From: Clostridia bacterium
GTDB lineage: Bacteria; Bacillota; Clostridia; UMGS1810
Assembly (NCBI GenBank): GCA_017621495.1
Contig: JAGATB010000007.1
Coordinates: 62,001-126,000, forward strand
Length of the DNA: 64,000 nucleotides
Reading direction: 5' to 3'
Shown here: positions 187 through 17,300 of the stretch, one piece after another
How positions within the stretch are numbered: the first letter of the stretch is position 1
Layout of the letters: every line of letters starts with the position of its first letter
The notes under the pieces: model-generated
The model's input: the letters and a program-made list of their open reading frames with translations, nothing else
Told to the model about the DNA's origin: nothing
The model's database searches: none
Made by a program: the position numbers and the translations under genes

Positions 187-690
187 TTACTGAATTGCGT
201 TAATAGGTGTAATATATCCCTTCGATACAGCAAATATTTTTTCTGTATATCCTTGAACAGTTGCAATCATAATTGAGAATATAGTTTCAATATCACTCAT
301 TCCTATAGCTGAATCAAATATATACTGTGCTATTTGGAAAGAAATATTATCTTTCAGATTCCAATTAAATGAGCCGTTCATAAGTTGGCTGTTTATTAAA
401 CATAGGGTTTCCGCAATCACATGCTTATATTCCGGCGATACTTCAATCGGCAAAGTACATTCAAATTTAAGTATATCCTTTTCAGCATCAATAAACACTA
501 CTGTATGCAAAAAGAATCCTTTTAAATTTCCGCGAAAAACTATCACGTTTTTAACTTCTTTATGAGGGACTATATCATATTTTATCTCCCTATTTTCCAA
601 CATTTCGCAAATTGCATTAAAGGTTTTATCGTATTTATTTTCAATATCGATATCTAAACCAAGTTCAGATTTTCTTTCAAAATTAAACAT
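187..690 (-). CDS. YbjN-like domain protein
   Basis: This 167-residue soluble protein has no signal peptide or membrane segment. Its pattern is a short N-terminal helix, a beta region (residues about 50-85, including the 'FIDAEKDILKF' stretch), then long helices ending near 'IMIATVQGYTEKIF'. That matches the YbjN / type III chaperone-like fold, a family that lacks an assigned enzymatic role. It is the last gene of the 12-gene minus-strand array and lies 32 bases after the stalk-domain gene. A clear ribosome site (AAGGGAGATAAGG) precedes the ATG. YbjN membership is inferred from sequence pattern; a chaperone or adaptor role for the exported neighbours is only a guess. Confidence 0.65.
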   Translation of the reverse strand: MFNFERKSELGLDIDIENKYDKTFNAICEMLENREIKYDIVPHKEVKNVIVFRGNLKGFFLHTVVFIDAEKDILKFECTLPIEVSPEYKHVIAETLCLINSQLMNGSFNWNLKDNISFQIAQYIFDSAIGMSDIETIFSIMIATVQGYTEKIFAVSKGYITPINAIQ

Positions 691-722
691 TTCCTTATCT
701 CCCTTTAGATAAATTATACTTA

Positions 723-1376
723 CTAATTTAAAATTTCTACTACCTGTGTTTCACCATACCAATTAACTGCACAATCAAGGCTTTCTGCAATTGCTCTTAC
801 AGGAACTAAAGTTCTGCCTGAAATCACAACGGCAGGAGAGTCTAAAACAACTATGTTGTCATTTTTTAATAGATAATCTTTTCCAATAGTAATTTTAATA
901 GTTGTACTTTTTGTAACGCCTATAGCGGTTTGTGTTGTTCCGTCCCAATCAACCTTTGCTCCAAGAGCTTCAAAAATCACTCTAATTGGCACCATTGTTC
1001 TGCTGTTAATAAGCATTGGCTCAACATCAAATTCAAGTTGTTTTCCGTTTAGAATAACTGTTATTCCGTTCGGTTGAGAATAAGTTGGAGTTTCAGCGTT
1101 AGTTACACTTTCGTCAAATTCTTTGTTATATGACTGAGAAACATCATCATATTTTCCCGATGATATATCTTGTGTTCCGCTTTCATCGTAGTCCTCATCA
1201 TAAGAGGTATGAATGTCATCACTTGCTCCTATTGTTATTTCATCCTGTTTTTCAGTTTCATCGTAGCTTTCATCGTAACCATAATCTACGTTTGCTGACT
1301 CTGAATATTCTTCGGCAAATGCTGTTGCTGTAAACAACATCATTGTCGCTAAAATTATACTTAATATTTTTTTCAT
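723..1376 (-). CDS. Secreted stalk-domain (copper amine oxidase N-terminal-like) protein
   Basis: This 217-residue exported protein starts with a signal peptide (residues 1-21, ending AFA). A very acidic segment follows (about 22-100) in which a YDExYDE-type motif recurs three times at roughly 30-residue spacing. The C-terminal half (about 105-217) is a stalk domain of the copper amine oxidase N-terminal type, with its hallmarks 'RTMVPIRVIFEALGA' and 'RTLVPVRAIAESLDC'. In Clostridia this domain is a wall-associated structural module and not an oxidase. It lies 14 bases after the 855-residue hydrolase gene and has a GAGG ribosome site. The acidic repeats could bind cations or basic wall components. 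Confidence 0.85.
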   Translation of the reverse strand: MKKILSIILATMMLFTATAFAEEYSESANVDYGYDESYDETEKQDEITIGASDDIHTSYDEDYDESGTQDISSGKYDDVSQSYNKEFDESVTNAETPTYSQPNGITVILNGKQLEFDVEPMLINSRTMVPIRVIFEALGAKVDWDGTTQTAIGVTKSTTIKITIGKDYLLKNDNIVVLDSPAVVISGRTLVPVRAIAESLDCAVNWYGETQVVEILN

Positions 1377-1390
1377 TTGGTTTTACCTCA

Positions 1391-3958
1391 TTATTGTAAA
1401 TTTATTCTATTTCCGGCTGCATAGCCACTAACGCCGTTGTATTCAACATAGTACCAACCATTACTTGCTTTATCGGGATATACTGTGCATCTTGCTCCTT
1501 GTGGCATACCTCCAACAATTTGATAATTGGTGGATGGGCCTGTGCGAATACTTAAATCTGTCCAACTTGACGGAATATTTACAATTCCTGTTCTTGTATT
1601 TGCGTTTGATGAATTGTTAAGATTTATTTGATTTCCTGAAGCATATCCCCAAATGCCGTTGTAATTTACATAATACCAACCATTGCTTGTTTTGTTTGGA
1701 TAAACAGTACATTTTGCTCCGTTGTTCATACTTCCAACGATTTGATAATTAGTGGAGGGTCCGCTTCTAATACTGAGATTTTCCCAACTTGAAGGAATAG
1801 CAACAGTACCCGTAACACCATTTCCGTTTGGAGAATTATCAACATATACATCTTTTGCTTTTACCGTAAAATTCTTTGTTGCTTCAACAGTTCTTCCTGA
1901 AGCATCTACAGCAACAACTCTCATTGTATAATTACCTGCTGAAAGGTTATTAAATATAAGGTCTGCATTAAGGTGTGCAGGTTTTATATCCATATAAGTT
2001 GAATTAGGTGTATCTTTTGAAGATAATACAGTTTGTCCATTTGAGTTTATAACATAACCTCTTACTACAGAAATATTGTAGTTTGATGTGATTGAGCCAC
2101 GCAAGCCGTAACTGCTACCAACATCTAATGTAACAGGATAATTTTTTAGGTTGATAGCTAATGTAGAGTTACTACTGCTTGTGTTTGATATAACTGAAAA
2201 GGCTTTAGACACTTCAACAGTTCTGCCTGAATTATCTGTTGCAACAACTTTCATAGTATAATTTCCTGCACCAAGATTATTGAAAACGAGGTCATCATTG
2301 AGGTTTGCACATCTTATATCCATAGAGGTCGAATTAGGTGTATCTTTAGATGACAATACAGTTTGACCACTTGAATTTATAACATAACCTTTTACAAGTG
2401 CGATATTATAGTTTGAAGTTATTGAGCCACGCAAACCAAAACCACTTCCTGCATTTAGTGTAACAGGGTATTTATCAAGGTTAATTGATAATGTTGACTC
2501 TGCTTTAACAGTTTGTCCGACAACAGTAAAGTTCTTTGTTACAGTAATGCCATTTCCTGAAGCATCTACGGCATATACTTCCAAAGTATAATTTCCTGTT
2601 CCCAATGTTTCAAAGACTAAATTATTATTTAATTTTTTATCTCTAACATCAACTGACTTTGTATTTGGACTATCTTCTGTAGATTGAATTACATTGCCGT
2701 TTTGTTTAATATATCCGTATATCTTTTTAATTTTGTAGTTTGAAGATATAGTTCCTCTTAAACCAAAATTATTGCCTTGTGTGTGTTGAACAGGATATTT
2801 GGTGAGATTGATTTTTAATGTTGAAGCTGCGTTGGTTTGTTGAGTGGTCGCTTTCACAGCTCCACAATAACACTGACCGTTATTGTAATTATAGTTATGA
2901 GAATGTTCCTTCTCGATAATCGCAGCACTTTCTTTTCTTTCAACATTTGATTCATTGTTTATTGTAACTTTGTAATTATCAGTTAAAGTTTGCGAATAAA
3001 TATAACCTGTCCAATTAACTTTGCCATCGTTGTCTTGATAATCAACGGCATACCACTCATTTCCATAAGCGTTTTTTACAGTACCAATGACAGGGAATTC
3101 TTTCAGAACTTTATTTTTTGTATTTATTTTCTCGGCATCTTCATAAGGTTTTTTATAAAGAGTTATTTTGTAATTCTTGTTCGAGCTTTTAATGGTAGCC
3201 GTGCCATTAATAATGTCAAGTTCAGAAAACCAATCAAATTCTGTTTGACAGGTTTCACAAGCACCTAAAAGAGTTTTACCATCCTTTTTAATGGTTTTAA
3301 AAGTTTCACAGTCATAAGGAGCAGAATGTAAATACTCTGGTTTGGGCATAACAATTTTTTTACATTTTCCGTTCAATCTGCTTAATATCTTGTCCCACGA
3401 ATATTTGCTCACACGAATACGAGATTGATTATTTTGGTTTCTCTCCCAATTTCCATCATAAATTGTTATGCTGTCTTTATCATAGGCGAAAACAATTATA
3501 GTATGCCCATCGCCTTGAATGTAAGCTCCGGGCAAAACTCCATTTTTCTTAAAACCTTCATATGATAAATCATAGGTTTTGACAATGTGTGCATCGTTTA
3601 AGGAATATACCCCGAAGATATAAGCAAACACATATTTTGCATAACCTAAACAAGTATGACTTCCTCCGTCAGTTTTAGTGCCGTATTTGATTTGTGCGTT
3701 AATGTCATATTTCCATTCTTTTGATTGAGAAAAAGTACCTACATCGTTTGAAGTATCTAAATTCAAATGCCATAAGTCTATGAGTTCTTGAAATTTGGTT
3801 TGGACTTTCTTATTTTTCACTACACCATCAACAGTTCCTGCCACTTGTTTTGCTTCTGCTTCTGATAAATCTACATAGTTTTTAGCAGCGAACACATTTG
3901 ATGAGGTTAAAGAAAGAATAAATGTAATTAGTAAAACTATAGATATGTTTTTTTTCAT
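1391..3958 (-). CDS. Secreted NlpC/papain-like cysteine hydrolase with Ig-like and SH3b repeats
   Basis: This 855-residue exported protein has a signal peptide (1-24). A cysteine-peptidase-like domain follows, with a Cys at about 103 ('HTCLGYAKY'), a His at about 152 ('GDGHTIIVF') and an Asp at about 168 ('TIYDGNW'), the Cys-His-Asp order of NlpC/P60, CHAP and papain-like hydrolases. Then come a zinc-like cysteine cluster near 215-235, three Ig-like repeats of about 100 residues (about 375-690), and two C-terminal SH3b modules (about 715-855). SH3b modules bind peptidoglycan, so a wall amidase or endopeptidase is likely. The same Ig-like module occurs once in the subtilase upstream. The ribosome site is AGGAGG. 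The catalytic assignment is by motif only. Confidence 0.75.
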   Translation of the reverse strand: MKKNISIVLLITFILSLTSSNVFAAKNYVDLSEAEAKQVAGTVDGVVKNKKVQTKFQELIDLWHLNLDTSNDVGTFSQSKEWKYDINAQIKYGTKTDGGSHTCLGYAKYVFAYIFGVYSLNDAHIVKTYDLSYEGFKKNGVLPGAYIQGDGHTIIVFAYDKDSITIYDGNWERNQNNQSRIRVSKYSWDKILSRLNGKCKKIVMPKPEYLHSAPYDCETFKTIKKDGKTLLGACETCQTEFDWFSELDIINGTATIKSSNKNYKITLYKKPYEDAEKINTKNKVLKEFPVIGTVKNAYGNEWYAVDYQDNDGKVNWTGYIYSQTLTDNYKVTINNESNVERKESAAIIEKEHSHNYNYNNGQCYCGAVKATTQQTNAASTLKINLTKYPVQHTQGNNFGLRGTISSNYKIKKIYGYIKQNGNVIQSTEDSPNTKSVDVRDKKLNNNLVFETLGTGNYTLEVYAVDASGNGITVTKNFTVVGQTVKAESTLSINLDKYPVTLNAGSGFGLRGSITSNYNIALVKGYVINSSGQTVLSSKDTPNSTSMDIRCANLNDDLVFNNLGAGNYTMKVVATDNSGRTVEVSKAFSVISNTSSSNSTLAINLKNYPVTLDVGSSYGLRGSITSNYNISVVRGYVINSNGQTVLSSKDTPNSTYMDIKPAHLNADLIFNNLSAGNYTMRVVAVDASGRTVEATKNFTVKAKDVYVDNSPNGNGVTGTVAIPSSWENLSIRSGPSTNYQIVGSMNNGAKCTVYPNKTSNGWYYVNYNGIWGYASGNQINLNNSSNANTRTGIVNIPSSWTDLSIRTGPSTNYQIVGGMPQGARCTVYPDKASNGWYYVEYNGVSGYAAGNRINLQ

Positions 3959-3972
3959 TTGTTTTCCTCCTG

Positions 3973-5064
3973 TTATTGCTCAACAAATATCCATTTTTGT
4001 GCTTCATAAGCTGTATTTAGTGAAAAGAGCTTCACATTTGTACCATTTTCTGTCCAAGCATTATCAACATCAAGGTATAAGCCACTATTTTTTTCTATAA
4101 TATAAAAGCAGTTATCACTTGTTTCTACCAAGCTCCATTGTTGAGATAAAGAGTTGTTGATTTCTTGCTGACAAACATTTGTGTTCTCGACAGTTCCATT
4201 ATTCTCAGCTGTCAAAGCCATACCTGAGTTTTTGTTTATAATCAGGTAATACCCATTACTCTGTTGCTTTAGTTCAAATTTCTGAGAAGCACTTGATGAA
4301 TTTTCTTGTAATTCCAAATTACCTCCGTTATTTTTACTTGCGTTTTCAATGTTCAAAACATAGTTTTTATCAAGTTTCGTTGCTATTTTGTAAGTTTTGA
4401 AAGATGTGTCATCTTCTACTGTATTATTAGATGAAGTGCTTTCTATTGGTTTGCTTGTTCTTTCAAAGTCGCAACCTGACCTTGTTCCGTTTCTGTCAGC
4501 ACCAACTCCTGTTGGCAATATGTACATATCAATATCTTGCCACATACTGTTCGTGGTATGTACCTCAAAAGAAGTTCCTCTTTCGTTGTTAAAAGGTATC
4601 GTTTCATCAAAATGTACTACGCCATCTTTTTCAAAGGTTATATGTACTTGGTCATTTTCAATTTTACCGATTGTCATAACACAGGTAGCATACCAAGTTC
4701 TATATTCGTTTATAATCGGATGCCAAGTGCCTTCAATATCCCAATCATATCGTGTTCCAATATCTTGTACGGGAGAGTAGTCCCATTGTTTTGCTTCTTC
4801 GTTATAATGGAACTCAACGGCATAAGTTGTATAACCTGATGTAATTTTTGCTTTTACAGGCTTTTCATAATAAAAAGTCCATATATCTTCTTCGCCTGCT
4901 TTTGATTTAACTTTTTCTTTAAAAGTAGCTCCTGAATGATTTTCATTCATAACGCTATCTGCGACTTCTTGTGATGGCTCTCCTTTAGAGTTTATTACCG
5001 AGCCACAGCCTACCAACGAAAGTGTAAGAACTACAGCTACGATTGTCGAAATTATTTTTTTCAT
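3973..5064 (-). CDS. Ricin B-type lectin lipoprotein
   Basis: The start is set at the ATG ending at 5064, which has an AAGGGGG site and opens 'MKKIISTIVAVV'; a longer reading would overlap the previous gene. A lipoprotein signal ends in the lipobox LVGC, so the mature protein is probably anchored to the outer face of the membrane. The middle (about 60-215) is unrecognised. The C-terminal 130 residues form a ricin-type beta-trefoil with three repeats, seen as 'QKFEL', 'QQWSL' and 'QKWIF' motifs, which typically bind galactose-type sugars. It sits 14 bases after the subtilase gene. It may tether the system to wall or host glycans. Confidence 0.85.
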   Translation of the reverse strand: MKKIISTIVAVVLTLSLVGCGSVINSKGEPSQEVADSVMNENHSGATFKEKVKSKAGEEDIWTFYYEKPVKAKITSGYTTYAVEFHYNEEAKQWDYSPVQDIGTRYDWDIEGTWHPIINEYRTWYATCVMTIGKIENDQVHITFEKDGVVHFDETIPFNNERGTSFEVHTTNSMWQDIDMYILPTGVGADRNGTRSGCDFERTSKPIESTSSNNTVEDDTSFKTYKIATKLDKNYVLNIENASKNNGGNLELQENSSSASQKFELKQQSNGYYLIINKNSGMALTAENNGTVENTNVCQQEINNSLSQQWSLVETSDNCFYIIEKNSGLYLDVDNAWTENGTNVKLFSLNTAYEAQKWIFVEQ

Positions 5065-5077
5065 AATGAAATCCCCC

Positions 5078-7699
5078 TTAATCAATACAGTTACCTGAAG
5101 CGTAACCATAAATTCCATTGTATTCTATAAAATACCAATTATTTTTTGCTTTGTCAGTAAAGATTGTGCATTTATTTCCGTTGTTCATACTTCCTATGAT
5201 TTGGTAATCTGTAGAAGCTCCTGTCCTTATACTTAAATTATCCCAAGATGAAGGAATATTGACAGTTCCAATTTTTGTTTCTGACGGAAGATAGATGTAG
5301 TTTCCGGCGGCATAACCTTTTATGCCGTTGTACTCAACATAGTACCAACCATTTTGTGTTTTATCAGTATAAACTTTACATTTATCAGTATTATTCATAC
5401 TACCAATAATTTCATAGTTGGTTGATGAGCCTGTTCTAATAGATAAGTTTTCAAAACTATCGGGAATGAGAACAGTAGCCGTTACAACATCCCCATCAGG
5501 AAGTTTGTTATCAACATCTGAAACTGAAAAAGCATCGCTTATCCAAGAAACAGTATTGCCGGTTTCATCTTCTGCATAGTATTTCAAGTAATATGTTCCT
5601 GAATTTAAGTTTTCAAAATTTAATCCTGTATCCAACTTGCTATTTTCTATAACATAAGTTGCGGTAGTAGTCCATCCACTTGCTTCTTGAACTATATTTT
5701 TATTAGTATCTAAAATATAAGACCTTACATCTGTTATATGACAATTTGATTTAATTCTTCCTGATAAATTAAATTTTGAGCCTTGTTCTATGTTTCCAAC
5801 AGGATAATCTTCAGGCAGTATTCTCAACTCTGATTTTACGGGTTCGGGAGTAGGAGTAGGCTCTTTAGAAGTTCCTGTTGTTGTAAATGTTACAACATCT
5901 GTATTTAGAACATAACCGCCTTGATTTGTAAAAATTGTTGCCTTGTATGTAGTTCCTTGCTGCAAAGTATAATTAGCATCAGTATTCAAATTACATTTGA
6001 AAATCATTTCGTTATTACCATTACTTTTAAATTTTGTTGAATATATTTCCTTGTCATTTAGCTCAATTCCAATAGTAGTAGGGATAAGTCCAACAAAACC
6101 AATCTCACCTGAAATGATTGCATTTGAATTTGTTACATTCGTTGCTTTAATATCAGAAAAATACATATTAGATAAATATTTTTCAAGCATATCTACTTTA
6201 ATTAAGCCTGCACCAAAGTATTTAGAACTACCAATTTTTGTAGCATTTTTCTCTAATGCTGCTGTAATTTCATTGGTTGTCATTTCAGGATGAACGGCTT
6301 TAACTAATGCGTATGCTCCTGCAATATGCGGAGAAGCCATTGAAGTTCCTGATTTGTTACAATAACCACCGCCAACTTTTGCTCCTTTTATGTTTGTTCC
6401 GGGAGCAGCAAATTCTACAATACCTTCGCCATAATTGCTTTTTGAATTTAATTTTAAATCCTTTGTAACATTGGAAACAGTAATTACACCATCAAGTCCG
6501 CCGGGAGAGAAAGGAGTGGTTGTCATATCCGCACTTTCGTTTCCTGCGGCTGCTACAACTGCAACATTTTTGCTATTCGCATAATTTACAGCTTCTCTTT
6601 CTAAATATCCCTCGTGTTGTCCACCCAAGCTCAAATTGATTACATCAGCTCCGTTGTCAGCAGCGTACTTTATCGCTTCAGCAACAACTGAACTTGAAGC
6701 TGTGCCACTATCTCCAAAAACTTTAAGCGGCATTATTTTAATGTTTTTATTATTTCCTGCAATATCAAGCACCGTGCTTGACACATGGGTGCCGTGTCCC
6801 ATTTTATCTTCGCAATAATTGTCATTAAAATAAAAATCGTGTCCGTCAACAATTCTATTCTTAAACATTTCGTGGTTGTAATCAATACCTGAGTCGATTA
6901 CAGCTACAATAGCAGAGCCACCATAATATGAAGTTTGATTATAATAAGACTCTCCGCCAATCATATCATATCCCCAAGATAGACCTTGAATTGTTCTTAT
7001 ATAATCAGGCTCGGCAGTTAGTCCTTTTTGAGAATTTATTTCAACACAATTTTTAGCATCATCAATACTTGCAAATTGTATTACTGTTTTTCCATCAGCA
7101 GAAAAATAATCAATGGCATTTCCTACATCTGCTTGTTCCGAATTTACGATTACACGCTTTGTTTGATAAGCTCTTGTAAAAGTTGCCGTCTGTGTTTCTT
7201 GCTGCCACTCAACTTCACAATCAAGAGCTTCTGCAACATCTCTGACAGGGAGCATTGTTCTCTCGTCTTTGATTTCGGGTGCATTAAGCAACATTACGCT
7301 TTGCCCATTGACTTCCATTTCGTTTTCGCCAATAGTCATTGCTATCATAGTATCTTCATTTTCAACAGTAACAGTTTGTGTATCGTTGTCATAAGAAACT
7401 TCTGCACCTATAGCTTCAGCTATACCCCTGACAGGCATCATTGTTCTTCCGTTTTCAACGTAAGCAACGCTGCCGCTTTCGTCGATGGGAATTACCTCAC
7501 CGTCAATGACTAAATCAGATTCACCAATAGTCACAGACATCGTTGCAAAATAATCCTCAGAGTCGTATTTTCGAATCATTTCCGAAAGCTGCGACAAGTA
7601 GGACCCATCCCCGGAGTTATCCGCTACTGCAATATATACCGGCGGCAAACGGAAACAAATAAGAATAAATGCTGTTACAAAAGATATTACTTTCTTCAT
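5078..7699 (-). CDS. Secreted subtilase (S8) with stalk domains, Ig-like domain and SH3b repeats
   Basis: The start is the ATG ending at 7699 with a strong AAGGAGGAAGG site; an in-frame extension to 7795 would run into the kinase gene. A signal peptide (about 1-27) is followed by two stalk-domain halves (about 50-175) and an S8 peptidase domain. All three catalytic motifs are present: Asp in 'VIDSGIDYNHEMF', His in 'GHGTHVSSTV' and Ser in 'GTSMASPHIAGA'. A fibronectin/Ig-like region and one Ig-like module shared with the neighbouring hydrolase follow, then two SH3b modules at the C-terminus. It is probably a wall-bound protease. It follows the kinase gene by 10 bases, so an intracellular phosphosignalling module is co-transcribed with an extracellular protease. 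Confidence 0.92.
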   Translation of the reverse strand: MKKVISFVTAFILICFRLPPVYIAVADNSGDGSYLSQLSEMIRKYDSEDYFATMSVTIGESDLVIDGEVIPIDESGSVAYVENGRTMMPVRGIAEAIGAEVSYDNDTQTVTVENEDTMIAMTIGENEMEVNGQSVMLLNAPEIKDERTMLPVRDVAEALDCEVEWQQETQTATFTRAYQTKRVIVNSEQADVGNAIDYFSADGKTVIQFASIDDAKNCVEINSQKGLTAEPDYIRTIQGLSWGYDMIGGESYYNQTSYYGGSAIVAVIDSGIDYNHEMFKNRIVDGHDFYFNDNYCEDKMGHGTHVSSTVLDIAGNNKNIKIMPLKVFGDSGTASSSVVAEAIKYAADNGADVINLSLGGQHEGYLEREAVNYANSKNVAVVAAAGNESADMTTTPFSPGGLDGVITVSNVTKDLKLNSKSNYGEGIVEFAAPGTNIKGAKVGGGYCNKSGTSMASPHIAGAYALVKAVHPEMTTNEITAALEKNATKIGSSKYFGAGLIKVDMLEKYLSNMYFSDIKATNVTNSNAIISGEIGFVGLIPTTIGIELNDKEIYSTKFKSNGNNEMIFKCNLNTDANYTLQQGTTYKATIFTNQGGYVLNTDVVTFTTTGTSKEPTPTPEPVKSELRILPEDYPVGNIEQGSKFNLSGRIKSNCHITDVRSYILDTNKNIVQEASGWTTTATYVIENSKLDTGLNFENLNSGTYYLKYYAEDETGNTVSWISDAFSVSDVDNKLPDGDVVTATVLIPDSFENLSIRTGSSTNYEIIGSMNNTDKCKVYTDKTQNGWYYVEYNGIKGYAAGNYIYLPSETKIGTVNIPSSWDNLSIRTGASTDYQIIGSMNNGNKCTIFTDKAKNNWYFIEYNGIYGYASGNCID

Positions 7700-7709
7700 G
7701 CCTTCCTCC

Positions 7710-8642
7710 TTACAAATCCCCGGCGGGCTTAAACCAATTTTCTTCTTTAGGCTCCTCTTTGGTTTCTTCAACCGGAGTATGATGAGTAATACCATTCAAT
7801 TGTTGTATAATTTCTTCGGCCGATGGTCTTTTTTTCGGATCTGCATCCAGCATAGATATAATCAAATTGCTGATATTTTTGGGCATTGCTCCCATATCCG
7901 GCATCAGGACGCCATTGTCCAACGCAGCTTCATAAGGATAGTCATATTCCTCAGTATCAAAGTATGGTAACCTGCCGCAATAATACTCATGGAATACCAA
8001 TCCCAATGCAAAAATATCTGCCTTTTCATCCAACTGAACATCTTCACCGCATATACCCATAAAAGTTTCCGGAGCAAGATGAGTCAGGTCTTTGCCCATT
8101 TCCTCGTTATCCAATTCTTCTCCTATAAGGAATCCCGAATCAAAATCAATTAACTTTGCAGTATAATTTCCGCTTTTTGTTATCTTAATAAGTATATTTG
8201 CAGGTTTTACGTCAAAATGAACAATTCCGGCGGAATGCAAATCATGGAAACACTGAGCAACTGTTTTTAACAACAACAGTTTTTTATCTTCAGCCAAAGA
8301 TGATATATACTCTATAGTTACATGACTGCCTTCAATCTTTTCCGTTATCAAATAGTACCTGCTGTCACATCTGAAAAACTCTTCAATTCTTACAAGGTTC
8401 CCATGGCTTGCCCTGTTGATTTTTTCAAAGAACATTTTATATTTGGCTTCATAATGCAAGCAGAAGTCACGGCGTTGCTGAAATAATTCCTCCGACATAA
8501 CACTCTTATCCATAGGATAGACAGGATTTATTAATTCCTTAATAAAATATTCTTTTCCGTTTTTGGTTGCAAAGCCCCACTTTGAAAAACCACTGTCATC
8601 ATTTTTTAATTCTGCTTTTAATTTATATCCGTTTATGTTCAT
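7710..8642 (-). CDS. Hanks-type Ser/Thr protein kinase (TerY-P-like triad kinase)
   Basis: This is a cytosolic eukaryotic-like kinase of about 310 residues without a membrane segment. Visible motifs are the VAIK-type lysine ('EYFIKEL'), the catalytic loop 'HFDVKPANIL', a DFG-equivalent reading 'DFDSGF' and the 'LAPETFMG' activation-segment end. The C-terminal tail is acidic and proline-rich and ends 'WFKPAGDL', almost the same as the end of the next membrane protein. I prefer the ATG ending at 8642 (GGTGATACACAA ahead of it); a TTG ending at 8690 is the alternative. Its PP2C and vWA partners lie upstream in the same operon. Its substrates may be the tails of the membrane proteins. Confidence 0.9.
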   Translation of the reverse strand: MNINGYKLKAELKNDDSGFSKWGFATKNGKEYFIKELINPVYPMDKSVMSEELFQQRRDFCLHYEAKYKMFFEKINRASHGNLVRIEEFFRCDSRYYLITEKIEGSHVTIEYISSLAEDKKLLLLKTVAQCFHDLHSAGIVHFDVKPANILIKITKSGNYTAKLIDFDSGFLIGEELDNEEMGKDLTHLAPETFMGICGEDVQLDEKADIFALGLVFHEYYCGRLPYFDTEEYDYPYEAALDNGVLMPDMGAMPKNISNLIISMLDADPKKRPSAEEIIQQLNGITHHTPVEETKEEPKEENWFKPAGDL

Positions 8643-8702
8643 TTGTGTATCACCATGTGTTCCCTTTGATTTTAAATATGCTCTCCACAATAGTTTTTCA
8701 TC

Positions 8703-9419
8703 CTACAAATCTCCGGCTTGTTTGAACCTTTCATGAGTTCCTTCATTGCGTTCATCTTTAAAACCATAGTTTGTTTCAAATTTTCTATCTTCCATATAAA
8801 AGTCATCGATTACCGGTTTTTCATCATAATAAATATCTTCTTCTATTGATATGTTTCTGTTTCTGATTATAATTACAATGCATAAGCACGCAGTTAACAA
8901 GCATGAAATTATTGAAAGATACACCCATATTGTTGGTGATACCATAATTCCCATGGTTTGCATCGAATTGGTAAGTTTATTTGCTATGTAAACATATATC
9001 AATGAGCATATCGCAACTAATATTGAACCGACACTACACATAACCAATGCATTATTTTCTTTGATGCTCTTAACCAGCATGCACATAGATACTGCAAACA
9101 TAATATAGCTTGCAATTAGCGTTCCGGACATAAGCTTCATTACTTTAACTCCGGTTTCCAAATCATTCATTAAGCCATAATTTAGGTTATCTATGTCTGA
9201 AATTCTCATTGAACTTAAAAGTTCGGATATGCTTTGGGCATATTCAGACAGTTGAAACGGACTAAATGACAATTCCGTTTGTATCAATACATCTTCTTTT
9301 ATGGATATGTTGTATTTTACCCATCCCATAAAAAATGAAAATATTGCTATCATTACTAATACTATAATAAGCGGTTTTATAAAATTATTATCTTTACTGT
9401 TAAAGCTTGTCTCTTTCAT
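8703..9419 (-). CDS. Four-helix membrane protein with AGDL tail
   Basis: No family recognised. The 238-residue protein has four predicted membrane helices (about residues 16-34, 97-118, 124-146 and 162-185) and a cytosolic C-terminal tail of about 50 charged residues. The tail ends 'ERFKQAGDL', matching the end of the adjacent kinase ('NWFKPAGDL'). The first loop between helices 1 and 2 is about 60 residues and probably extracellular. The ribosome site is AGGAGACTAACTAC. The position between kinase and phosphatase, with the shared tail, suggests a membrane partner or sensor of the kinase; this is inferred. Confidence 0.75.
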   Translation of the reverse strand: MKETSFNSKDNNFIKPLIIVLVMIAIFSFFMGWVKYNISIKEDVLIQTELSFSPFQLSEYAQSISELLSSMRISDIDNLNYGLMNDLETGVKVMKLMSGTLIASYIMFAVSMCMLVKSIKENNALVMCSVGSILVAICSLIYVYIANKLTNSMQTMGIMVSPTIWVYLSIISCLLTACLCIVIIIRNRNISIEEDIYYDEKPVIDDFYMEDRKFETNYGFKDERNEGTHERFKQAGDL

Positions 9420-9450
9420 GTAGTTAGTCTCCTCAAAATTATTTTATAAT

Positions 9451-10056
9451 TTATAATTCTCTGTCAGAATTAAAACCATTAAACCTTTCTGCTGTTTCAC
9501 TTGATGTGCTCGACACTGTGCGCATGGTTGACCTCAAACGTCCTGTAGAAGAATTTCCCAGTGATGTCTTCTTTACGCTTGGAGGAGTAATTGTTTCGGC
9601 ATCCTTTTCAAAAGAGGTTATTTTGCTTAAATTTGGTAGAAAGTCAGATACAAAAACATATATAATAAAAAGAATCGAAGCAATCAATATTACCGACGAT
9701 ACCGGCGCAACAGCCGACAAGCCTCCCTTCTCAATTGCATATTCTCCCAAATATCCATAGCTTTTCACGACATTGATTATAGCAATTCCCATATAAGAAG
9801 CTCCTGTCAACGCAAATGCAAGTGTCAGATATTTCAATGTAGTCTTACGAGAACCGAACTTTTCTATAAATTTAGTTGTCATTGAGCCTGCTATTGCAAA
9901 AGGAATAACACCAATAGTCGCCCATACTAAAGCATCATAATCTTCTCCGTGCCAAAGTATTTCCTTTAACGATTCCTCCATAAGAGTTGGATATAAAAAA
10001 CCCAATAACACTAAACCAACTATAATTATTAATTTTGCTAATTCTTTATCTTTCAT
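9451..10056 (-). CDS. Membrane protein of the kinase/phosphatase operon
   Basis: No family recognised. The 201-residue protein has four likely membrane helices (about 8-24, 40-60, 72-94 and 115-142). A C-terminal tail rich in Ser, Thr and Arg ('RTVSSTSSETAERF') ends 'FNSDREL'. The tail has several possible phosphorylation sites and echoes the 'RF...GDL' ends of the two downstream proteins. It starts 11 bases after the PP2C gene with a TAAGGAGAAAAAAG site. It may be a substrate or anchor of the signalling module, by inference from position and tail. Confidence 0.75.
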   Translation of the reverse strand: MKDKELAKLIIIVGLVLLGFLYPTLMEESLKEILWHGEDYDALVWATIGVIPFAIAGSMTTKFIEKFGSRKTTLKYLTLAFALTGASYMGIAIINVVKSYGYLGEYAIEKGGLSAVAPVSSVILIASILFIIYVFVSDFLPNLSKITSFEKDAETITPPSVKKTSLGNSSTGRLRSTMRTVSSTSSETAERFNGFNSDREL

Positions 10057-10067
10057 CTTTTTTCTCC

Positions 10068-10970
10068 TTAAAGATATATTGAATACTCTCTCTTATAAAC
10101 ATCCCACAAAGAACACACATCCTTTTGAGAGTTCATATATTTCTCAACCACATACTTATTTCTTTTAACAAAACTACTTCTGATATCCTCAAAATCCGAA
10201 AAGCCGCAAACCGCAACGCACAAAGTGTAATCATCGCCTGTTACCTCGTGCATACGTTCATTTAAAGCTACCTTCCATTCGAGGATACTTTTTGCTTTAA
10301 TCAATGAATCAGTCAAAAGATGTTCAAATTCCATAGGAGAATTCAAGTAGCCGAAACAACCGTCTGTAGCTGTCAATAATATACATGGGTGGTCTATGGT
10401 GATTTTTTTGCTATGTATCTCAAAAGATGTGCTTGCGTTAATAACATTAGTCATAATGCCGTCATTTGACAAGTTGCTCATAGCGTCCTGTCCGTCAAGG
10501 TCATCATCTGTTAGCTGGTGCATTCCGCTTGCATCCAACATATAGCACCTAGAATCTCCCGCCCAAAAACAAGTTATATCTATTTTTTGCTCATTTAATT
10601 TTCCGGTAATGATGGCAGCGGTTGTTGGAAAAGACTTTCCCAGAGAACCCATTATACGTCCGGATTTGTCCGCATATTTATTACACACAGTCAAAGCTTC
10701 GTATATATAACCTTGAATTTCCGTCTCAATATTTGATTCGCAAAACCAAGCCCTCACACCACCGCAAACTGCGCGCGATGCAATATACGCCCCTGTTTTT
10801 CCAGAATAATTTTCGTACTTTTTAGAACCGGAACCACCGCACCCGTCAAGCGATGCAATTATGAAATTATCATCAATCACATCAAAGTAAAAGCAATCTT
10901 CACCATTGTTTTTTACCATTTCTTCAGCTACAGAAAATATTGAATTTAATTCTTGTCTTGTTTTCTTCAT
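10068..10970 (-). CDS. PP2C-family protein phosphatase
   Basis: This 300-residue cytosolic metal-dependent Ser/Thr phosphatase has the PP2C metal motifs in order: 'LDGCGGSG' near residue 34-41, 'FWAGDSRCYML' near 135, 'TATDGCFGYL' near 202 and 'GDDYTLCVA' near 255. The Asp residues of these motifs normally hold two Mn/Mg ions. No membrane segment is seen. It begins 15 bases after the vWA gene with an AGAGG ribosome site. With the vWA protein and the kinase it completes the three components of a TerY-P-type triad, in which kinase and phosphatase are expected to act on the same targets. Confidence 0.92.
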   Translation of the reverse strand: MKKTRQELNSIFSVAEEMVKNNGEDCFYFDVIDDNFIIASLDGCGGSGSKKYENYSGKTGAYIASRAVCGGVRAWFCESNIETEIQGYIYEALTVCNKYADKSGRIMGSLGKSFPTTAAIITGKLNEQKIDITCFWAGDSRCYMLDASGMHQLTDDDLDGQDAMSNLSNDGIMTNVINASTSFEIHSKKITIDHPCILLTATDGCFGYLNSPMEFEHLLTDSLIKAKSILEWKVALNERMHEVTGDDYTLCVAVCGFSDFEDIRSSFVKRNKYVVEKYMNSQKDVCSLWDVYKREYSIYL

Positions 10971-10985
10971 TTGATAACCTCTTTG

Positions 10986-11672
10986 TTAGATAGAGTTTGA
11001 AATAGTATTGATAATTTCCTCATATTCCAAATTTGCTAAACCTTTACCCGCTTCGGATGGAAAGTGCAATACATTGTCCCAATTCTGTGATATAACATTC
11101 CAATCGGGAGCATCAGGAGCAAACAACAAAAGTCGTTTTGCATTGTTGTCTACAAAACCTGTCTGCTGAGAACCACTCCACCATGAGGATAACTCTTTAA
11201 TATCCTTAGCCATGTTCCTTGGATAATTTTCCACATTTCTTCCATATCCAAGCGGATGTGTTGGAGCATCTGTCCACACAACAATTACCTGGCGTTTTTT
11301 CATTCCTTGGGTATCCCATTTGGATTTTATTGCATAAGCGAGTGCTTCCAGCCCGTCTTCGGGATCGTCTCCGCCGCCCTCGGCTTTTAAGCTGTGCACA
11401 CATCTTTCAAATTCCTTTTCTTCCTGAGGGAGCTTGAAAAAGTCTGTAACCATCATTGCCTTATCTTTATCCGCCGCATAATCACGAAAGGCAACCACCC
11501 TGACTCTAAGCTGACTGATATACTTATGTTTTTTCTCCATTGCATTAGTTACATCCTGATAAAAATTCAATGCATTATTTTTAACGATTTCAATGATGTT
11601 ATCCATGCTTCCTGTACAGTCAATGCAGAACACCATATCCACATTGTAGCTGATTTTATAATTACTTGCCAT
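10986..11672 (-). CDS. TerY-like vWA domain protein
   Basis: The 228-residue protein is essentially a single vWA domain. The metal-ion-dependent adhesion site is 'DCTGSM' near residue 18, a DxTxS variant of the usual DxSxS. The other metal-site elements are the 'GGGDDPEDGLEAL' region and 'VVWTDAPTH'. There is no signal peptide, so it is cytosolic. The DxTGSM form is known in vWA proteins of kinase-associated systems. It overlaps the preceding gene by 11 bases, which suggests coupled translation, and has a GGAGGAGTAACAA site. Its likely job is to scaffold the triad. Confidence 0.88.
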   Translation of the reverse strand: MASNYKISYNVDMVFCIDCTGSMDNIIEIVKNNALNFYQDVTNAMEKKHKYISQLRVRVVAFRDYAADKDKAMMVTDFFKLPQEEKEFERCVHSLKAEGGGDDPEDGLEALAYAIKSKWDTQGMKKRQVIVVWTDAPTHPLGYGRNVENYPRNMAKDIKELSSWWSGSQQTGFVDNNAKRLLLFAPDAPDWNVISQNWDNVLHFPSEAGKGLANLEYEEIINTISNSI

Positions 11673-12309
11673 TTGTTACTCCTCCGTTTTCCTTTTTATT
11701 TACTATATTTTCCTCTGCATTCGACTCACTCTCAGAGGTAATTTTAACTTTTTTATCATTTGCCTCGGAAGTTTCATTATTGTCTTTTTCTTTATACTCA
11801 TCCGTTATATTTTTTGTATTCTCTCCGCCTTTATTTTCTGCTTTTTCATCTTCCTTGTTAGCTTTTTCAATTTCTGCAAGGATAGAATCAAGCAAAGTTT
11901 TATATTCATTCAATTCCTTTTTTGTTTCGTCGATTTGACCTATTGTCTCTTCTTTGTATCTTTTTACGGTATTCATAGTCCTAATACCAAAAACAATTGA
12001 ACTGATGAGAATCAAAAAGCTCAATCCAATGGCTATTAAACCAAACAATGAATTTTTTTGTGTTGACTTCATAATGTTATCTGATTTCTTCAGTAATTTT
12101 TGCATATCTAAATCCCTCATTCCTTTCAATTCAAAATTTTCTTTATTAATATATCCACTTGAATTAGACGGTGTATTCTCGTCGAAAACTCCAAAACTCA
12201 ATATGTCTGCAAATCCGACACAGCCCGTTGTCGGTGGCATATCTGCACCACAATATGAGCACTCAGCCAAACCCATTATATTACTTTTTCCGCATTTATC
12301 GCAAATCAC
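11662..12309 (-). CDS. Zinc-ribbon membrane protein with coiled coil
   Basis: The start is a GTG ending at 12309 with an AGGAGGTAACTAA site. An N-terminal zinc ribbon (two Cys pairs: 'CDKCG' and 'CSYCG', residues 3-20) is followed by a cytosolic linker and one membrane helix (about 89-109). A long extracellular Lys/Glu-rich coiled coil and a low-complexity C-terminus follow. The topology suggests a sensor or anchor with the zinc ribbon inside. TerY-P triads in the literature carry zinc ribbons fused to the kinase; here the ribbon may act in trans. The function is inferred from context. Confidence 0.75.
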   Translation of the reverse strand: MICDKCGKSNIMGLAECSYCGADMPPTTGCVGFADILSFGVFDENTPSNSSGYINKENFELKGMRDLDMQKLLKKSDNIMKSTQKNSLFGLIAIGLSFLILISSIVFGIRTMNTVKRYKEETIGQIDETKKELNEYKTLLDSILAEIEKANKEDEKAENKGGENTKNITDEYKEKDNNETSEANDKKVKITSESESNAEENIVNKKENGGVTNGK

Positions 12310-12333
12310 TTAGTTACCTCCTATACCGCTTTA

Positions 12334-12711
12334 TTACATTATACATAATTCTTCAATTCCCGCTTTAATTAATGCGTTGACTTGAGTCGCATATATACCC
12401 GATGAATTATCTTGACATATTGCAACAATCAGTCCTATTATAATTAATATGATAATTATGGCCCAAAGAATATTTCCTTCATTTGTTCCATTTTTAGCTG
12501 AGGTGTCTTTATCATCTTTAAACACAGGCATATCATCTGAAATTTTTTCAAGATATTCATCAGCTTCCGTCCAAGTTCTGAGTATAGTTGAGCTTTTTCC
12601 GCATCCACAAACAATACACTTAGTAAGTAACATACTATTTTCCATATCACATTCGTTACATAACCAGCTATCACATTCTCGCCTGTATTTTAAAATAACT
12701 TTTGTTTCCAT
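12334..12711 (-). CDS. Small zinc-ribbon membrane protein, first gene of the signalling operon
   Basis: The ATG ending at 12711 is chosen because GGGAG lies 8 bases ahead; a Met five codons upstream would put that site inside the gene. The 125-residue protein has a zinc ribbon (about residues 13-37, 'CNECD' and 'CIVCGCG'), an acidic middle, one strong membrane helix (about 83-104) and a short C-terminus. It is the promoter-proximal gene of the 12-gene array and pairs with the next zinc-ribbon membrane protein. No family name can be given. I see no fully convincing sigma-A promoter in the AT-rich DNA just upstream. Confidence 0.7.
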   Translation of the reverse strand: METKVILKYRRECDSWLCNECDMENSMLLTKCIVCGCGKSSTILRTWTEADEYLEKISDDMPVFKDDKDTSAKNGTNEGNILWAIIIILIIIGLIVAICQDNSSGIYATQVNALIKAGIEELCIM

Positions 12712-12775
12712 CGTTTGTTCTCCCATACCATCAATAAAACAATATTTATATACTTAGTTTAAATATATATTTAGC

Positions 12776-13144: not shown

Positions 13145-13786
<642 letters not shown>

Positions 13787-15247
13787 CTACATTCTGTAAA
13801 AATTATATTTATCAAGCTTTGATGCAGGATTTAAAATATTGAGGGGGTCATCTGTCTCAATTGCATTAGACTTGCCCTGCCTTGGATTGATTAAGTTTTC
13901 CATGAGTACATATCGTACGCAGTCATATATGTGGTCCTCACCGGAGGAATCGATATCCTCCACATTTACGCTGTCATACACCAGTGCCGGTATAGTCCTT
14001 ATAAATCCCGGGCAATTATCAAATACATACATCATGGGTATACCCTCATCGTCAAAGGCAAATCTGTAATGAAACTGCATCTTGCCTGCCAGGCGTTCAT
14101 TGTCACCGTAGTCGAAGAATACCCCCTGAGAGGCGAACATGTCTGCTATGCTTTCGCCGGTTTCCGCTTTTGATATGGCAGGGTCGGCTATACCGCGGAT
14201 TTTCCTGCCTTTTAAATTTATATGTTCATTTTCCATCATTTTAATTCTTTCGGCAATCTGCTGCGGAGTGTAGCGTACTCCTTCATTGGGAGTGCCTGTA
14301 CATCCGTAAAGCTCAGCTATCACATATGCCCTGCCGTCATGGTCTATGGCTATCCACTCTACCGCAAAAGGGCGTGAGTATCCGAAGTCAAATCCCCGGT
14401 ATATCTTCCAGCTCTTGGGTATCTCAAAGGGTTTTATAACATGAGTAAAACGTCTGTCCGTGTATCGTGCAGGGTCATTTCGCCATTCGGAGAACACCTG
14501 CCCTGCAAAGCTGTCCCAATCGCCGTAGAGCAGGGCTTTCTTTTCCTTATCCGGCAGAAGCGACAGATTGGCAAGGTAGTTGGGATCATTCTTTAAAAGC
14601 TCCTCATTATCAAACACGGTAGATGGTACAAATATCCGGCTGCGCTCCATTTCTATGAGCTTGCCGTCAGGGCCCACAGCCTGTACTATGGTCTTAATAG
14701 GTGTCAGGGGCGGAGCGGCTGTGATAAACCGCTCCTTTACCCATCCGTGACCTATACCGCCGGGGTTGGTGGTAGCCCTTATGTAGCATCTGGTGCCGCC
14801 GCCCGACGGTCGGTTACGTGAAAACATATATGAATACTCCTCCCAGGTGAAATGCGTAAGCTCGTCAAAGGCTATGAAGTCATATCTCTTACCCTGATAG
14901 TTTATCCTGTCCTTGGTATGCTGCATGGCGCCAAAGTATATTTTTGCCCCGGAGGGGAAAATCCAGCAATGCTTACTGTCATTGTAGGTTGCCTTGGGGT
15001 ATGCCTTGGTGTAGAGCTCACGGCTGCGGTCTATGAGCTCAGATAGCTGCGGATAGGTCTTTCTTAATATCAGCCCTCTGTAGTGACCTATGTGCACCTG
15101 TCTGAGTGCTTCTGTAAGCAGTGCATCGGATTTACCTCCTCCTGCCGCTCCGCCGTAGAGTGCTTCGTACTCCGGTCGAGACTGAAATACTGCCTGCTTA
15201 GGCTGAGGAGTCCATATTATATTTTTGTCATTCTTCAAATTGCTCAT
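13787..15247 (-). CDS. Phage terminase large subunit
   Basis: The start is the ATG ending at 15247, with TGGAGG nine bases ahead; an ATG six codons upstream is possible. The protein has 486 residues. The N-terminal ATPase has Walker A 'GGAAGGGKS' and Walker B 'YDFIAFDELTHF'. The C-terminal RNase-H-like nuclease has acidic residues in 'RGFDFGYSRP', 'IRGIADPAI' and 'EDHIYDCVRY'. Full length and all motifs are intact, so the packaging motor could work. It overlaps the upstream small gene by 20 bases. No portal gene is next to it, which is unusual. Confidence 0.92.
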   Translation of the reverse strand: MSNLKNDKNIIWTPQPKQAVFQSRPEYEALYGGAAGGGKSDALLTEALRQVHIGHYRGLILRKTYPQLSELIDRSRELYTKAYPKATYNDSKHCWIFPSGAKIYFGAMQHTKDRINYQGKRYDFIAFDELTHFTWEEYSYMFSRNRPSGGGTRCYIRATTNPGGIGHGWVKERFITAAPPLTPIKTIVQAVGPDGKLIEMERSRIFVPSTVFDNEELLKNDPNYLANLSLLPDKEKKALLYGDWDSFAGQVFSEWRNDPARYTDRRFTHVIKPFEIPKSWKIYRGFDFGYSRPFAVEWIAIDHDGRAYVIAELYGCTGTPNEGVRYTPQQIAERIKMMENEHINLKGRKIRGIADPAISKAETGESIADMFASQGVFFDYGDNERLAGKMQFHYRFAFDDEGIPMMYVFDNCPGFIRTIPALVYDSVNVEDIDSSGEDHIYDCVRYVLMENLINPRQGKSNAIETDDPLNILNPASKLDKYNFYRM

Positions 15248-15608
15248 CCTCCGTTTCCTCCACATCGCTGAGCAGTACTATGCCGTTTTCATCTGTGTCC
15301 CGGTCGTCATCACCTGTCATGCTCGTGTGAATATCCTTGATATCCTTAAGTGTAGATACCAGCTGTTTGAGAGCGGCTTTGTCTATCATGCCGTCAATTA
15401 TCTCTACGTTTTCCTTCTCCTCTACCACCTCATTTACAGGCTTCTTGGTATCGTAATCATACTCCACAGTCTTAGTGCGTTCCTTAATTTTTAGCACACA
15501 GCGAGTGAGCTCACTGATGGATTTTTCTATCATATCCAGCATACTGTCGGCTATGGTGAGTATTCTCTCGTGTCTTTGCTGCTCATCGGACGTGAGTTCA
15601 CTTTTCAC
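15228..15608 (-). CDS. Putative terminase small subunit / phage protein
   Basis: This 126-residue acidic protein starts at a GTG ending at 15608 with a GGGAGCGAGCATT site. It has an N-terminal helical part ('ILTIADSMLDMIEKSISELTR'), a charged middle and an Asp/Glu-rich tail that runs over the terminase start. Position directly before the large subunit and the overlap suggest a small terminase subunit. The sequence itself has no motif I can name, and no helix-turn-helix is obvious. Confidence 0.6.
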   Translation of the reverse strand: MKSELTSDEQQRHERILTIADSMLDMIEKSISELTRCVLKIKERTKTVEYDYDTKKPVNEVVEEKENVEIIDGMIDKAALKQLVSTLKDIKDIHTSMTGDDDRDTDENGIVLLSDVEETEDEQFEE

Positions 15609-15624
15609 AATGCTCGCTCCCGTC

Positions 15625-15975
15625 TTATATTGCCGATTCCGAAATCACGGCTTCACTCTGCAGTCTGGACTGATACTGCACGGAAAAGCTATTCTGCTGT
15701 TCGCTGTTTGCCAGTGCTTCGGCATATTTTCTGGGTATACGCACCTCTACACCTCTGGGCACTATCATACCCACACCGTTTACCGCTACAAATACATCAT
15801 CCTTGTATCTGTTGCTGTCTTTAAACAGCTTCACGGTAACAAGCTCGTTGTAGTAGTCCTTTGCGCTGATTGAGGGCTCAGCACTCTGCTCATCAGAAGG
15901 TTCAGATACCTCCTCGATGATTTCCTCTGTAATTTCCTCTGTGATTTCTTCTGTAATTTGTTTTTTAGTAGCCAT
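15625..15975 (-). CDS. Small phage structural or head-associated protein
   Basis: This 116-residue protein starts with a Thr/Ile/Glu repeat (an EITEE unit repeated several times, residues 7-20). An acidic linker follows, then a compact C-terminal part with 'VTVKLFKDSNRYKDDVFVAVNG' and 'VPRGVEVRIPRKYAEAL'. Such a small protein often follows a major capsid gene in Clostridia phage cassettes. It starts 18 bases after the capsid gene with a GAAGGAGG site. The function is unknown; a head decoration or completion role is possible. Confidence 0.65.
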   Translation of the reverse strand: MATKKQITEEITEEITEEIIEEVSEPSDEQSAEPSISAKDYYNELVTVKLFKDSNRYKDDVFVAVNGVGMIVPRGVEVRIPRKYAEALANSEQQNSFSVQYQSRLQSEAVISESAI

Positions 15976-15993
15976 TATTTATCCTCCTTCAAA

Positions 15994-17280
15994 TTAATTT
16001 TCGCCGCTTTCAAAGCTGGACACACTCTCTATTCTGGTAATGTAGTTGTCTACCAGAAGCTCTGCTACCTTGGTTCCCTTCCAGCCTGCAGTAGCTCTCT
16101 GATTGAGCGGGTCTGCAGTACCACCGGAACCCAGCTGCTTCACTATGTGTTCCAGTCCGCCGCCGGTAACCTCTGTGACACCGTAGGCATTGGCTCCCAG
16201 AACCAGTGTAGAGTAGATGTCTCTGCCTGCAAGTCCTGCCTCACCGGGGTAAACAATATCACTGCTCGTCATGGAATATCCGCTCATACCCGGAATTGAA
16301 GTATCCATAAACCATATGGTCTTGGTAGATGGTGATACACCGCCTACTACCACAGTGGCGCTTGTGAGAGCTATATTGTCTGCATTGGGATTGTGAATCT
16401 GTATCTTCCTGCCCAGAAGATTTACCGCATCCTCCTCTGTGATGACCTCTCTCACTACAATCTTGTGAGTGCTTACACTGCCGAACTCAGCAGAGGTGTC
16501 GGTGGCACTCGTACTGTAGGAAGCTACAGAAAGTGTTCTGGAGCTTTTGGTCAAATCCGGAGCATGGAATATCTTAGCTTCTGTGGTCTCCACAAATCTT
16601 ACACCGCCGATTTTACCGATTTCACCGGCAAAGATATTTTCGGAATTAGCATATTTATTGACGTCTATCCACTCCTCGTCTCTCATGAGGTCGTAGCTTA
16701 CGTCCGGATGAATGATAGCCACATAGCCGCCTTCAATTTTTGGCGTATTCTGCGACTTCAAAAATCGAGCCGCCTTGAATATATCATCCACACAAAGCTT
16801 GGCTGTCTCATCAAGCAGACTTCTGGACTCTCTGCCTGTGGCATACATTACACTGGTACCTGCATTGAGCACCTCTCTGGTCACAGTATCCAGTGTGGTG
16901 CCTGCCTGACTGCCCAGAAGTCTGGTAGTCTCCACCAAAGTGTTATCTACAGCGGTAAGCATAAGTACATCAGAAAGAGTTACATAGTAACCGTACTGAG
17001 AAACATCTGCAGTAACCTTGGTTACAGACAGACTGCCACCGTTTGGAGTTATACCCTCTGTGAGAGGCTTGGACGCCTTGGTAAAGGGTACGAACTTTCT
17101 AAAGTTAATGGTCTTGCCGCCGTTGGCAGGTATGGGGTGCTTCTGACCGAACTGGTCATGCACCAGATTGGGCACAGCGTTATCTATGAGATAGTCGCTA
17201 TAGTAGGTTTTCATCTCTGCCGAGAGTCCTTCGGTTGTGTTTGGGTTCATATTGAAGCCCTGTGTACTTGTTTCTGACAT
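15994..17280 (-). CDS. N4-gp56 family major capsid protein
   Basis: The 428-residue protein matches the N4-gp56 capsid family in length and in its opening: 'MKTYYSDYLIDNAVPNLVHDQFG', then 'GKTINFRKFVPF', 'LTEGITPNGG' and the 'QYGYYVTLSDVL' strand. The later 'YVAIIHPDVSYDLMRDEEW' and 'FVETTEAKIF' stretches are also typical. These HK97-fold proteins build the head shell. It follows the scaffold-like gene by 20 bases with an AAAAGGAGG site. The frame is intact throughout. Confidence 0.9.
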   Translation of the reverse strand: MSETSTQGFNMNPNTTEGLSAEMKTYYSDYLIDNAVPNLVHDQFGQKHPIPANGGKTINFRKFVPFTKASKPLTEGITPNGGSLSVTKVTADVSQYGYYVTLSDVLMLTAVDNTLVETTRLLGSQAGTTLDTVTREVLNAGTSVMYATGRESRSLLDETAKLCVDDIFKAARFLKSQNTPKIEGGYVAIIHPDVSYDLMRDEEWIDVNKYANSENIFAGEIGKIGGVRFVETTEAKIFHAPDLTKSSRTLSVASYSTSATDTSAEFGSVSTHKIVVREVITEEDAVNLLGRKIQIHNPNADNIALTSATVVVGGVSPSTKTIWFMDTSIPGMSGYSMTSSDIVYPGEAGLAGRDIYSTLVLGANAYGVTEVTGGGLEHIVKQLGSGGTADPLNQRATAGWKGTKVAELLVDNYITRIESVSSFESGEN

Positions 17281-17300
17281 TTATTTTTCCTCCTTTTCAT

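Follow-up and report, generated by a model that had tools for sequence, protein, structure and literature searches.

The DNA analyzed here is a 64,000-nucleotide stretch of a genome from a gut Clostridia bacterium (contig JAGATB010000007.1; hereafter the window). At 187–12726 it carries an operon in which a Ser/Thr kinase, a PP2C-type phosphatase, and a von Willebrand factor A (vWA) protein, a triad resembling the published TerY-P triad, are encoded together with membrane proteins and exported proteins likely to act on the cell wall. The strongest link between these parts, overlooked in the original prediction for this DNA, is a shared C-terminal tag, [WF]FxxAGDL, present on the kinase and on membrane proteins. 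It looks like an undescribed address tag that joins phosphorylation in the cell to the surface machinery. On balance, the evidence leans slightly toward a TerY-P-like hub that would recruit tagged clients and control the co-encoded exported wall enzymes by phosphorylation.

The operon consists of 12 open reading frames (ORFs), all on the minus strand and at the positions first proposed. In 5′ to 3′ order they are separated by 24, −11, 15, 11, 31, 60, 4, 7, 14, 14, and 32 bases. The earlier description of a 12-gene operon with gaps of about 10–60 bases or overlaps, in which the triad is contiguous with an exported gene set, is borne out by these ORF positions and gaps. The region shows no excess of terminator-like sites over shuffled sequence, and scans for promoters and terminators there gave chance-level results.

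A C-Terminal Tag Shared by the Kinase and Membrane Proteins

The kinase (7710–8642, minus strand) ends in NWFKPAGDL (7713–7739, minus strand), and a polytopic membrane protein, mem1 (8703–9419, minus strand), ends in ERFKQAGDL (8706–8732, minus strand). Eighty named loci, most of them belonging to uncultured Clostridia of the gut and rumen, contain the vWA protein; this sample is vWA-based, with mechanically called ORFs, and comes mostly from contigs of metagenome-assembled genomes (MAGs). In its strict form the tag terminates 21 of the 82 kinases; it also ends 16 of the 377 other proteins encoded in the operons, but none of the 645 genes beyond them (Fisher test, 1e-7). A looser form is present in 46 of 82 kinases, 21 of 377 other operon proteins, and 1 of 645 outside genes. 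At the DNA level, the pattern for F-x-x-[AG]-G-D-L-stop has two matches in the window's own genome of 2.2 Mb, both in the operon and one of them the mem1 tag; the reversed control has none. Across 391 genomes of the class, 21 matches fall in eight triad genomes. Those matches elsewhere that were read mostly terminate frames of 1–37 codons and are probably due to chance.

The tails of kinase and client co-vary within 20 loci (score 19.4 versus 12.4 ± 1.7; 0 of 5000 permutations), GGDL being paired with GGDL, PGNL with PGDL, and DDF with NDF. Since the clients are unrelated to the kinase, a shared binding partner would be the natural reason for this co-variation, although copying of tails by recombination is possible too. 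A sister group of kinases, found in nearly stand-alone triads, ends instead in NGLSRFMKK (L071, L074, L080, L081, L084, L087, L089, L092, L093, and L096–L099). Zinc-ribbon membrane partners were observed in none of 12 loci with NGLSRFMKK-type kinases, versus 46 of 53 tag-type loci; the NGLSRFMKK group looks related by descent, so the 12 do not represent independent events.

Bacteria use short C-terminal peptides as signals for proteases or for sorting, and the tag could by analogy be a degradation or sorting signal that sets the levels of kinase and clients rather than a docking peptide. We consider this very improbable. Some variants carry one or two extra residues at the end (DDLS, NDFDD, GDLI), and internal copies, only mildly enriched overall, occur in L106, L100, and L140; a free terminus is therefore not needed. 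The limitation of the tag to triad operons and its co-variation with the kinase tail also argue against such a signal. No description of the tag was found in a literature search that did not cover the founding Ter paper.

Among the proteins that carry the tag are membrane proteins of the polytopic and zinc-ribbon kinds. Locus L037 encodes a protein with a signal peptide, leucine-rich repeats (LRRs), and a transmembrane (TM) segment that bears the tag DWFKSAGDL at its cytosolic end, as well as a tagged TetR-like regulator (assigned by reading the sequence, not by family search). In L106, a protein with a zinc ribbon, a TM segment, and an S8 protease domain has tag-like copies preceding the TM segment. 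A protein in L055 has an N-terminal FHA domain followed by a TM segment and an S8 domain, and in L054 the related Yop-YscD_cpl model matches at the equivalent place. Surface proteins whose cytosolic part bears the tag or a phospho-reader (L037, L106, L055) support a signaling hub. Outside a triad operon, an FtsW/RodA-like protein (L140:5580–7232; G066:C62) ends in two tag copies, ...FFRGGDL...FFTGGGDL, and its gene is followed by genes resembling those of penicillin-binding proteins; it is a possible wall-synthesis client.

A second motif, LKSTMRT, lies ∼27–43 residues before the C terminus of several tag carriers and was found in 11 of 470 operon proteins versus 0 of 715 outside; as a DNA pattern it is not specific enough to be tested genome-wide. 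The polytopic membrane protein mem2 (9451–10056, minus strand), whose long C-terminal tail ends in the degenerate tag SDREL, carries this motif as RLRSTMRT (9517–9540, minus strand), a candidate phosphorylation site.

The Triad and a Putative Reader of the Tag

The kinase is of the Hanks type (Pkinase, 8e-30; alignment of 33 kinases), and its catalytic motifs HFDVKPAN, DFD, and APE are intact. Neither Pfam nor the 33-kinase alignment reveals a further domain at its C terminus, which consists of a short, disordered, tag-bearing tail; a few kinase relatives (L075, L107) have a CxxC pair ahead of this tail. The phosphatase (10068–10970, minus strand) was assigned from its motifs together with matches to PP2C_2 (3.7e-4) and an Stp1/IreP model (3e-6), both below cut-off. 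All four metal-site motifs are intact (LDG, AGDSR, TDG, and GDDYT). The vWA protein (10986–11672, minus strand; VWA_4, 4e-12) has a D-x-T-G-S sequence resembling a metal ion-dependent adhesion site (MIDAS) and is the most conserved member of the operon (alignment A1, mean column identity 80%). The only sequence relatives of its alignment in the PDB are integrin beta-8 I-domains (E 0.003). It is the proposed scaffold and tag reader.

In an AlphaFold prediction of the L090 kinase alone, the tag is unstructured, with a predicted local distance difference test score (pLDDT) of <50. When the same kinase is read through in frame into its natural downstream vWA protein, the pLDDT of the tag rises to 59–66 and a strand bridge forms at residues 310–311, with linkers of pLDDT <50 on both sides. 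Docking of the tag on the vWA domain is weakly to modestly favored by these models.

A bolder reading, which we put forward only tentatively, is that [WF]FxxAGDL serves bacteria as an address tag of a new kind, recognized by a cytosolic vWA domain and perhaps by way of its MIDAS metal, as integrins recognize RGD peptides. Any protein acquiring the tag would then fall under the control of one kinase/phosphatase pair, including membrane proteins, LRR surface proteins, the TetR-like regulator, and the FtsW-like wall synthase. No account of how TerY-P systems choose their substrates was found in the literature, and a tag common to kinase and clients offers a testable answer. The shortness and specificity of the tag would allow further clients to be found by genome search and binding to be tested with synthetic peptides.

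Exported Proteins and Their Link to the Triad

Four exported proteins are encoded downstream of the kinase. The subtilase (5078–7705, minus strand) comprises a signal peptide, CuAO_N1 domains, an S8 protease domain (Pfam, 1e-43), an Ig-like region, and two SH3b modules. Its catalytic motifs VIDSG, GHGTH, and GTSMASPH are intact, and it matches a mycosin-like model below cut-off (3e-44). The ricin-type lectin (3973–5070, minus strand; RicinB_lectin_2, 1e-26) is a probable lipoprotein, with a lipobox-like LVGC stretch behind the signal peptide. The third protein (1391–3958, minus strand) has a hydrolase-like domain with Cys, His, and Asn, Ig-like repeats, and two SH3b modules, and the fourth is a CuAO_N1 stalk protein (723–1376, minus strand; 4e-35). 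Paired SH3b modules had been predicted for both enzymes, and Pfam finds SH3_3 pairs in each. The label NlpC-like, applied earlier to the hydrolase, holds for the Cys/His/Asn arrangement and goes no further, the domain having neither a Pfam match nor a relative in the PDB. A homolog in another genome (G292) is 66% identical over the Ig-like part and has an N-terminal Peptidase_M23 domain ahead of the same Ig and SH3b modules; the window protein is therefore likely to be a peptidoglycan hydrolase whose catalytic domain has been swapped.

The pairing of triad and exported enzymes recurs. S8 proteases of at least three types occur in six triad operons (the window, L106, L054, L055, L056, and L057), and a query with the window S8 protein found none outside the operons among the sampled genes of the same loci. 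Other cargo of triad operons includes GH25-ricin, M4, and SH3b proteins, CuAO proteins with GH26 and Ig domains, LRR proteins, and a metallophosphatase-SLH protein. Consistent separation of the exported genes from the triad in related genomes, which would have refuted the original prediction, was thus not seen. Pairing of the S8-hydrolase-stalk cassette with the triad is nevertheless not obligatory, as G292 and a further genome, G140, show.

Several points weigh against control of the exported enzymes by a tag-reading hub. The window exported proteins themselves do not have the tag, which leaves co-transcription as their only tie to the module. In G292, a cassette with a 73%-identical S8 protein lies on a different contig from the triad (L139:4362–10740, contig C72). 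The tag patterns were composed after the first loci, some among the 80, had been seen, and tag variants are loose beyond the nearest clade. Related loci were counted separately, and most are not phylogenetically independent. The AlphaFold signal is moderate and comes from one read-through fusion, without coordinates and with the bridge partner not seen.

It is possible, although we regard it as rather doubtful, that the two halves of the operon are merely co-located. The triad and its tagged membrane clients would then form a stress- or metal-signaling module, and the S8-ricin-hydrolase-stalk genes would be an unrelated secreted set that came to lie downstream of it, co-transcribed and functionally uncoupled. 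Consistent with this, the cassette is away from the triad in G292, S8 and stalk genes adjoin another kinase in G140, the exact cassette stands beside a triad in the window alone, and the DNA read around the S8 homologs of G223, G280:C8, and G360 contains no triad. In G140 (L177:508–17101; G140:C177), S8 and stalk genes lie beside a different Ser/Thr kinase of 1164 amino acids (MDLNYYKKYEPI...); this kinase, too, is accompanied by zinc-ribbon proteins, so that the cassette likewise adjoins a kinase with such partners. Directly upstream of the G292 cassette, a 59-codon frame ends in FRTAGDL, as if it were the remnant of a deleted tagged gene. In the window, the kinase and subtilase genes are just 4 bases apart, and some S8 proteins of the other types in triad operons have a zinc ribbon or an FHA domain as their cytosolic fusion partner. 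These observations argue against mere co-location. G280 has two S8 genes ∼20 kb from its triad on the same strand, and a kinase with a start like that of the G140 kinase lies upstream of the triad in L011 (1192–2565).

Proposed Mechanism

We propose that the module is a horizontally spreading, envelope-adapted variant of the TerY-P triad. The kinase and PP2C would set the phosphorylation state, with PP2C reversing phosphorylation, and the vWA protein would act as a common scaffold for kinase and clients, both of which bear the tag. Recruited to this scaffold through a cytosolic [WF]FxxAGDL, membrane and zinc-ribbon proteins would be phosphorylated, perhaps within the LKSTMRT stretch. These membrane clients could then relay their state to the surface enzymes, namely the subtilase, the probable peptidoglycan hydrolase, the lectin lipoprotein, and the stalk, with export or activity of the enzymes as the putative output. 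Gating of CwlA export by PrkC provides a precedent for such an output (PMC8262956). The module ties triads of this kind to the cell envelope of gut Clostridia, where few regulators of surface proteases and wall hydrolases are known.

Genomic Setting and Distribution

The remaining operon genes encode two zinc-ribbon membrane proteins and a cytosolic protein. The small protein zr1 (12334–12726, minus strand) has CxxC pairs and one TM segment (Zn_ribbon_RanBP, sub-threshold), and its homologs occupy the equivalent position in over a dozen loci. zr2 (11662–12309, minus strand) likewise has a zinc ribbon (Zn_Ribbon_1, sub-threshold) and one TM segment. Among non-core genes close to the core, 43% encode zinc-ribbon proteins with a TM segment, versus 2% of genes outside. 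The cytosolic protein (187–690, minus strand) was previously called YbjN-like; the Pfam match lies below threshold (E 0.078), and the label is a hint.

Within the class, the vWA protein is present in 13 of 391 genomes. The core genes run vWA-PP2C-kinase in 48 loci, and a further 13 have PP2C-kinase-vWA. The window operon has a GC content of 32%–36% versus 42%–46% for the surrounding DNA. Its closest vWA relatives, 84%–88% identical, come from another family of the class, while those of its own family are 66%–71% identical, which indicates that the operon was probably acquired horizontally. Close relatives (vWA identity 55%–56%) with kinase tails ending in PDDFD are found in two loci labeled Succinivibrionaceae (L103, L104) and may reflect cross-phylum transfer or MAG contamination. 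Two distant relatives on plasmids (vWA identity 46% and 43%) have a kinase without the tag. Downstream, the operon is bordered by an ATPase gene on the opposite strand; phage remnants (resolvase/invertase, terminase, and head protein; 13145–18233) abut it upstream. A terminase 74% identical to that of the window also abuts the triad in G006 (L012:12178–13617).

TerY-P triads protect against T7-like phages (PMC7699616), and the window operon is patchy, GC poor, and adjacent to phage remnants. In PADLOC its kinase also hits kinase models, among them mad6 and PD-T4-6. The triad might sense infection, as has been reported of TerY-P, and kill the infected cell by releasing lytic and proteolytic effectors. 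Such a role seems unlikely. The PADLOC matches reflect general kinase domains, and neither the vWA protein, PP2C, nor the exported proteins have a defense match except to generic subtilase/IetS models. The would-be effectors have signal peptides and would act outside the cell, and the operon contains no nuclease, helicase, or ATPase. Nothing specific was found in support of the defense or toxin-export roles that had been suggested for it. A phage-borne system was also considered; viral contigs gave a single weak match, and hence no sign of one. An unverified record labeled "Bacteriophage sp." (L182; MT836186.1) has PP2C and vWA genes beside two integrase/recombinase-like genes and may represent a mobile element, not a phage.

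Comparison with Known Systems

In published TerY-P triads, the kinase carries a zinc ribbon or OB-fold, and links to restriction, phage defense, and tellurite have been described (PMC11090510, PMC7699616, PMC4978471; the triad is attributed to Anantharaman 2012 and Gao 2020, as cited in PMC11090510 and PMC7699616). The window likewise has neighboring vWA, PP2C, and Ser/Thr kinase genes and an association with zinc ribbons. In contrast, its zinc ribbons sit on separate membrane proteins, its kinase bears the short C-terminal tag in place of a zinc ribbon or OB-fold, and its operon contains membrane and exported proteins as partners rather than Ter or DNA-processing genes. No zinc ribbon or OB-fold was found on the window kinase. 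TerD, whose absence had been noted before, was not found in 12 triad genomes, the window's own included (the search outside the operon did not extend to TerC or DNA-processing genes). TerY_C is absent from the window's genome, and sub-threshold matches were seen only in G280:C33, beside its triad. In PADLOC, neither the window vWA protein nor PP2C has a match, and the kinase matches general kinase models only. The proposal of a TerY-P triad thus stands for the adjacent vWA, PP2C, and kinase genes and fails for a canonical triad. With neither the kinase fusion nor the TerD link found, the triad is classed from its sequence as a variant that would work like TerY-P and not as a member.

In the actinobacterial GAP1-N2 systems (PMC7159879), as far as the portion consulted describes them, standalone vWA, PP2C, and kinase genes also adjoin. 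They are tied to GTPase-centered conflict systems, and exported enzymes and a C-terminal tag are not described in that portion; its authors propose an interaction between vWA and peptide. Another related system is the PrkC/STP-CwlA system of Clostridioides difficile, in which PrkC controls export of CwlA, an SH3_3-NlpC/P60 hydrolase (PMC8262956). Both systems combine a Ser/Thr kinase and phosphatase with an exported SH3_3 wall hydrolase. PrkC, however, is a transmembrane PASTA kinase, and its system has no vWA protein, tag, or shared operon; it is an analog of the window module rather than a homologous system.

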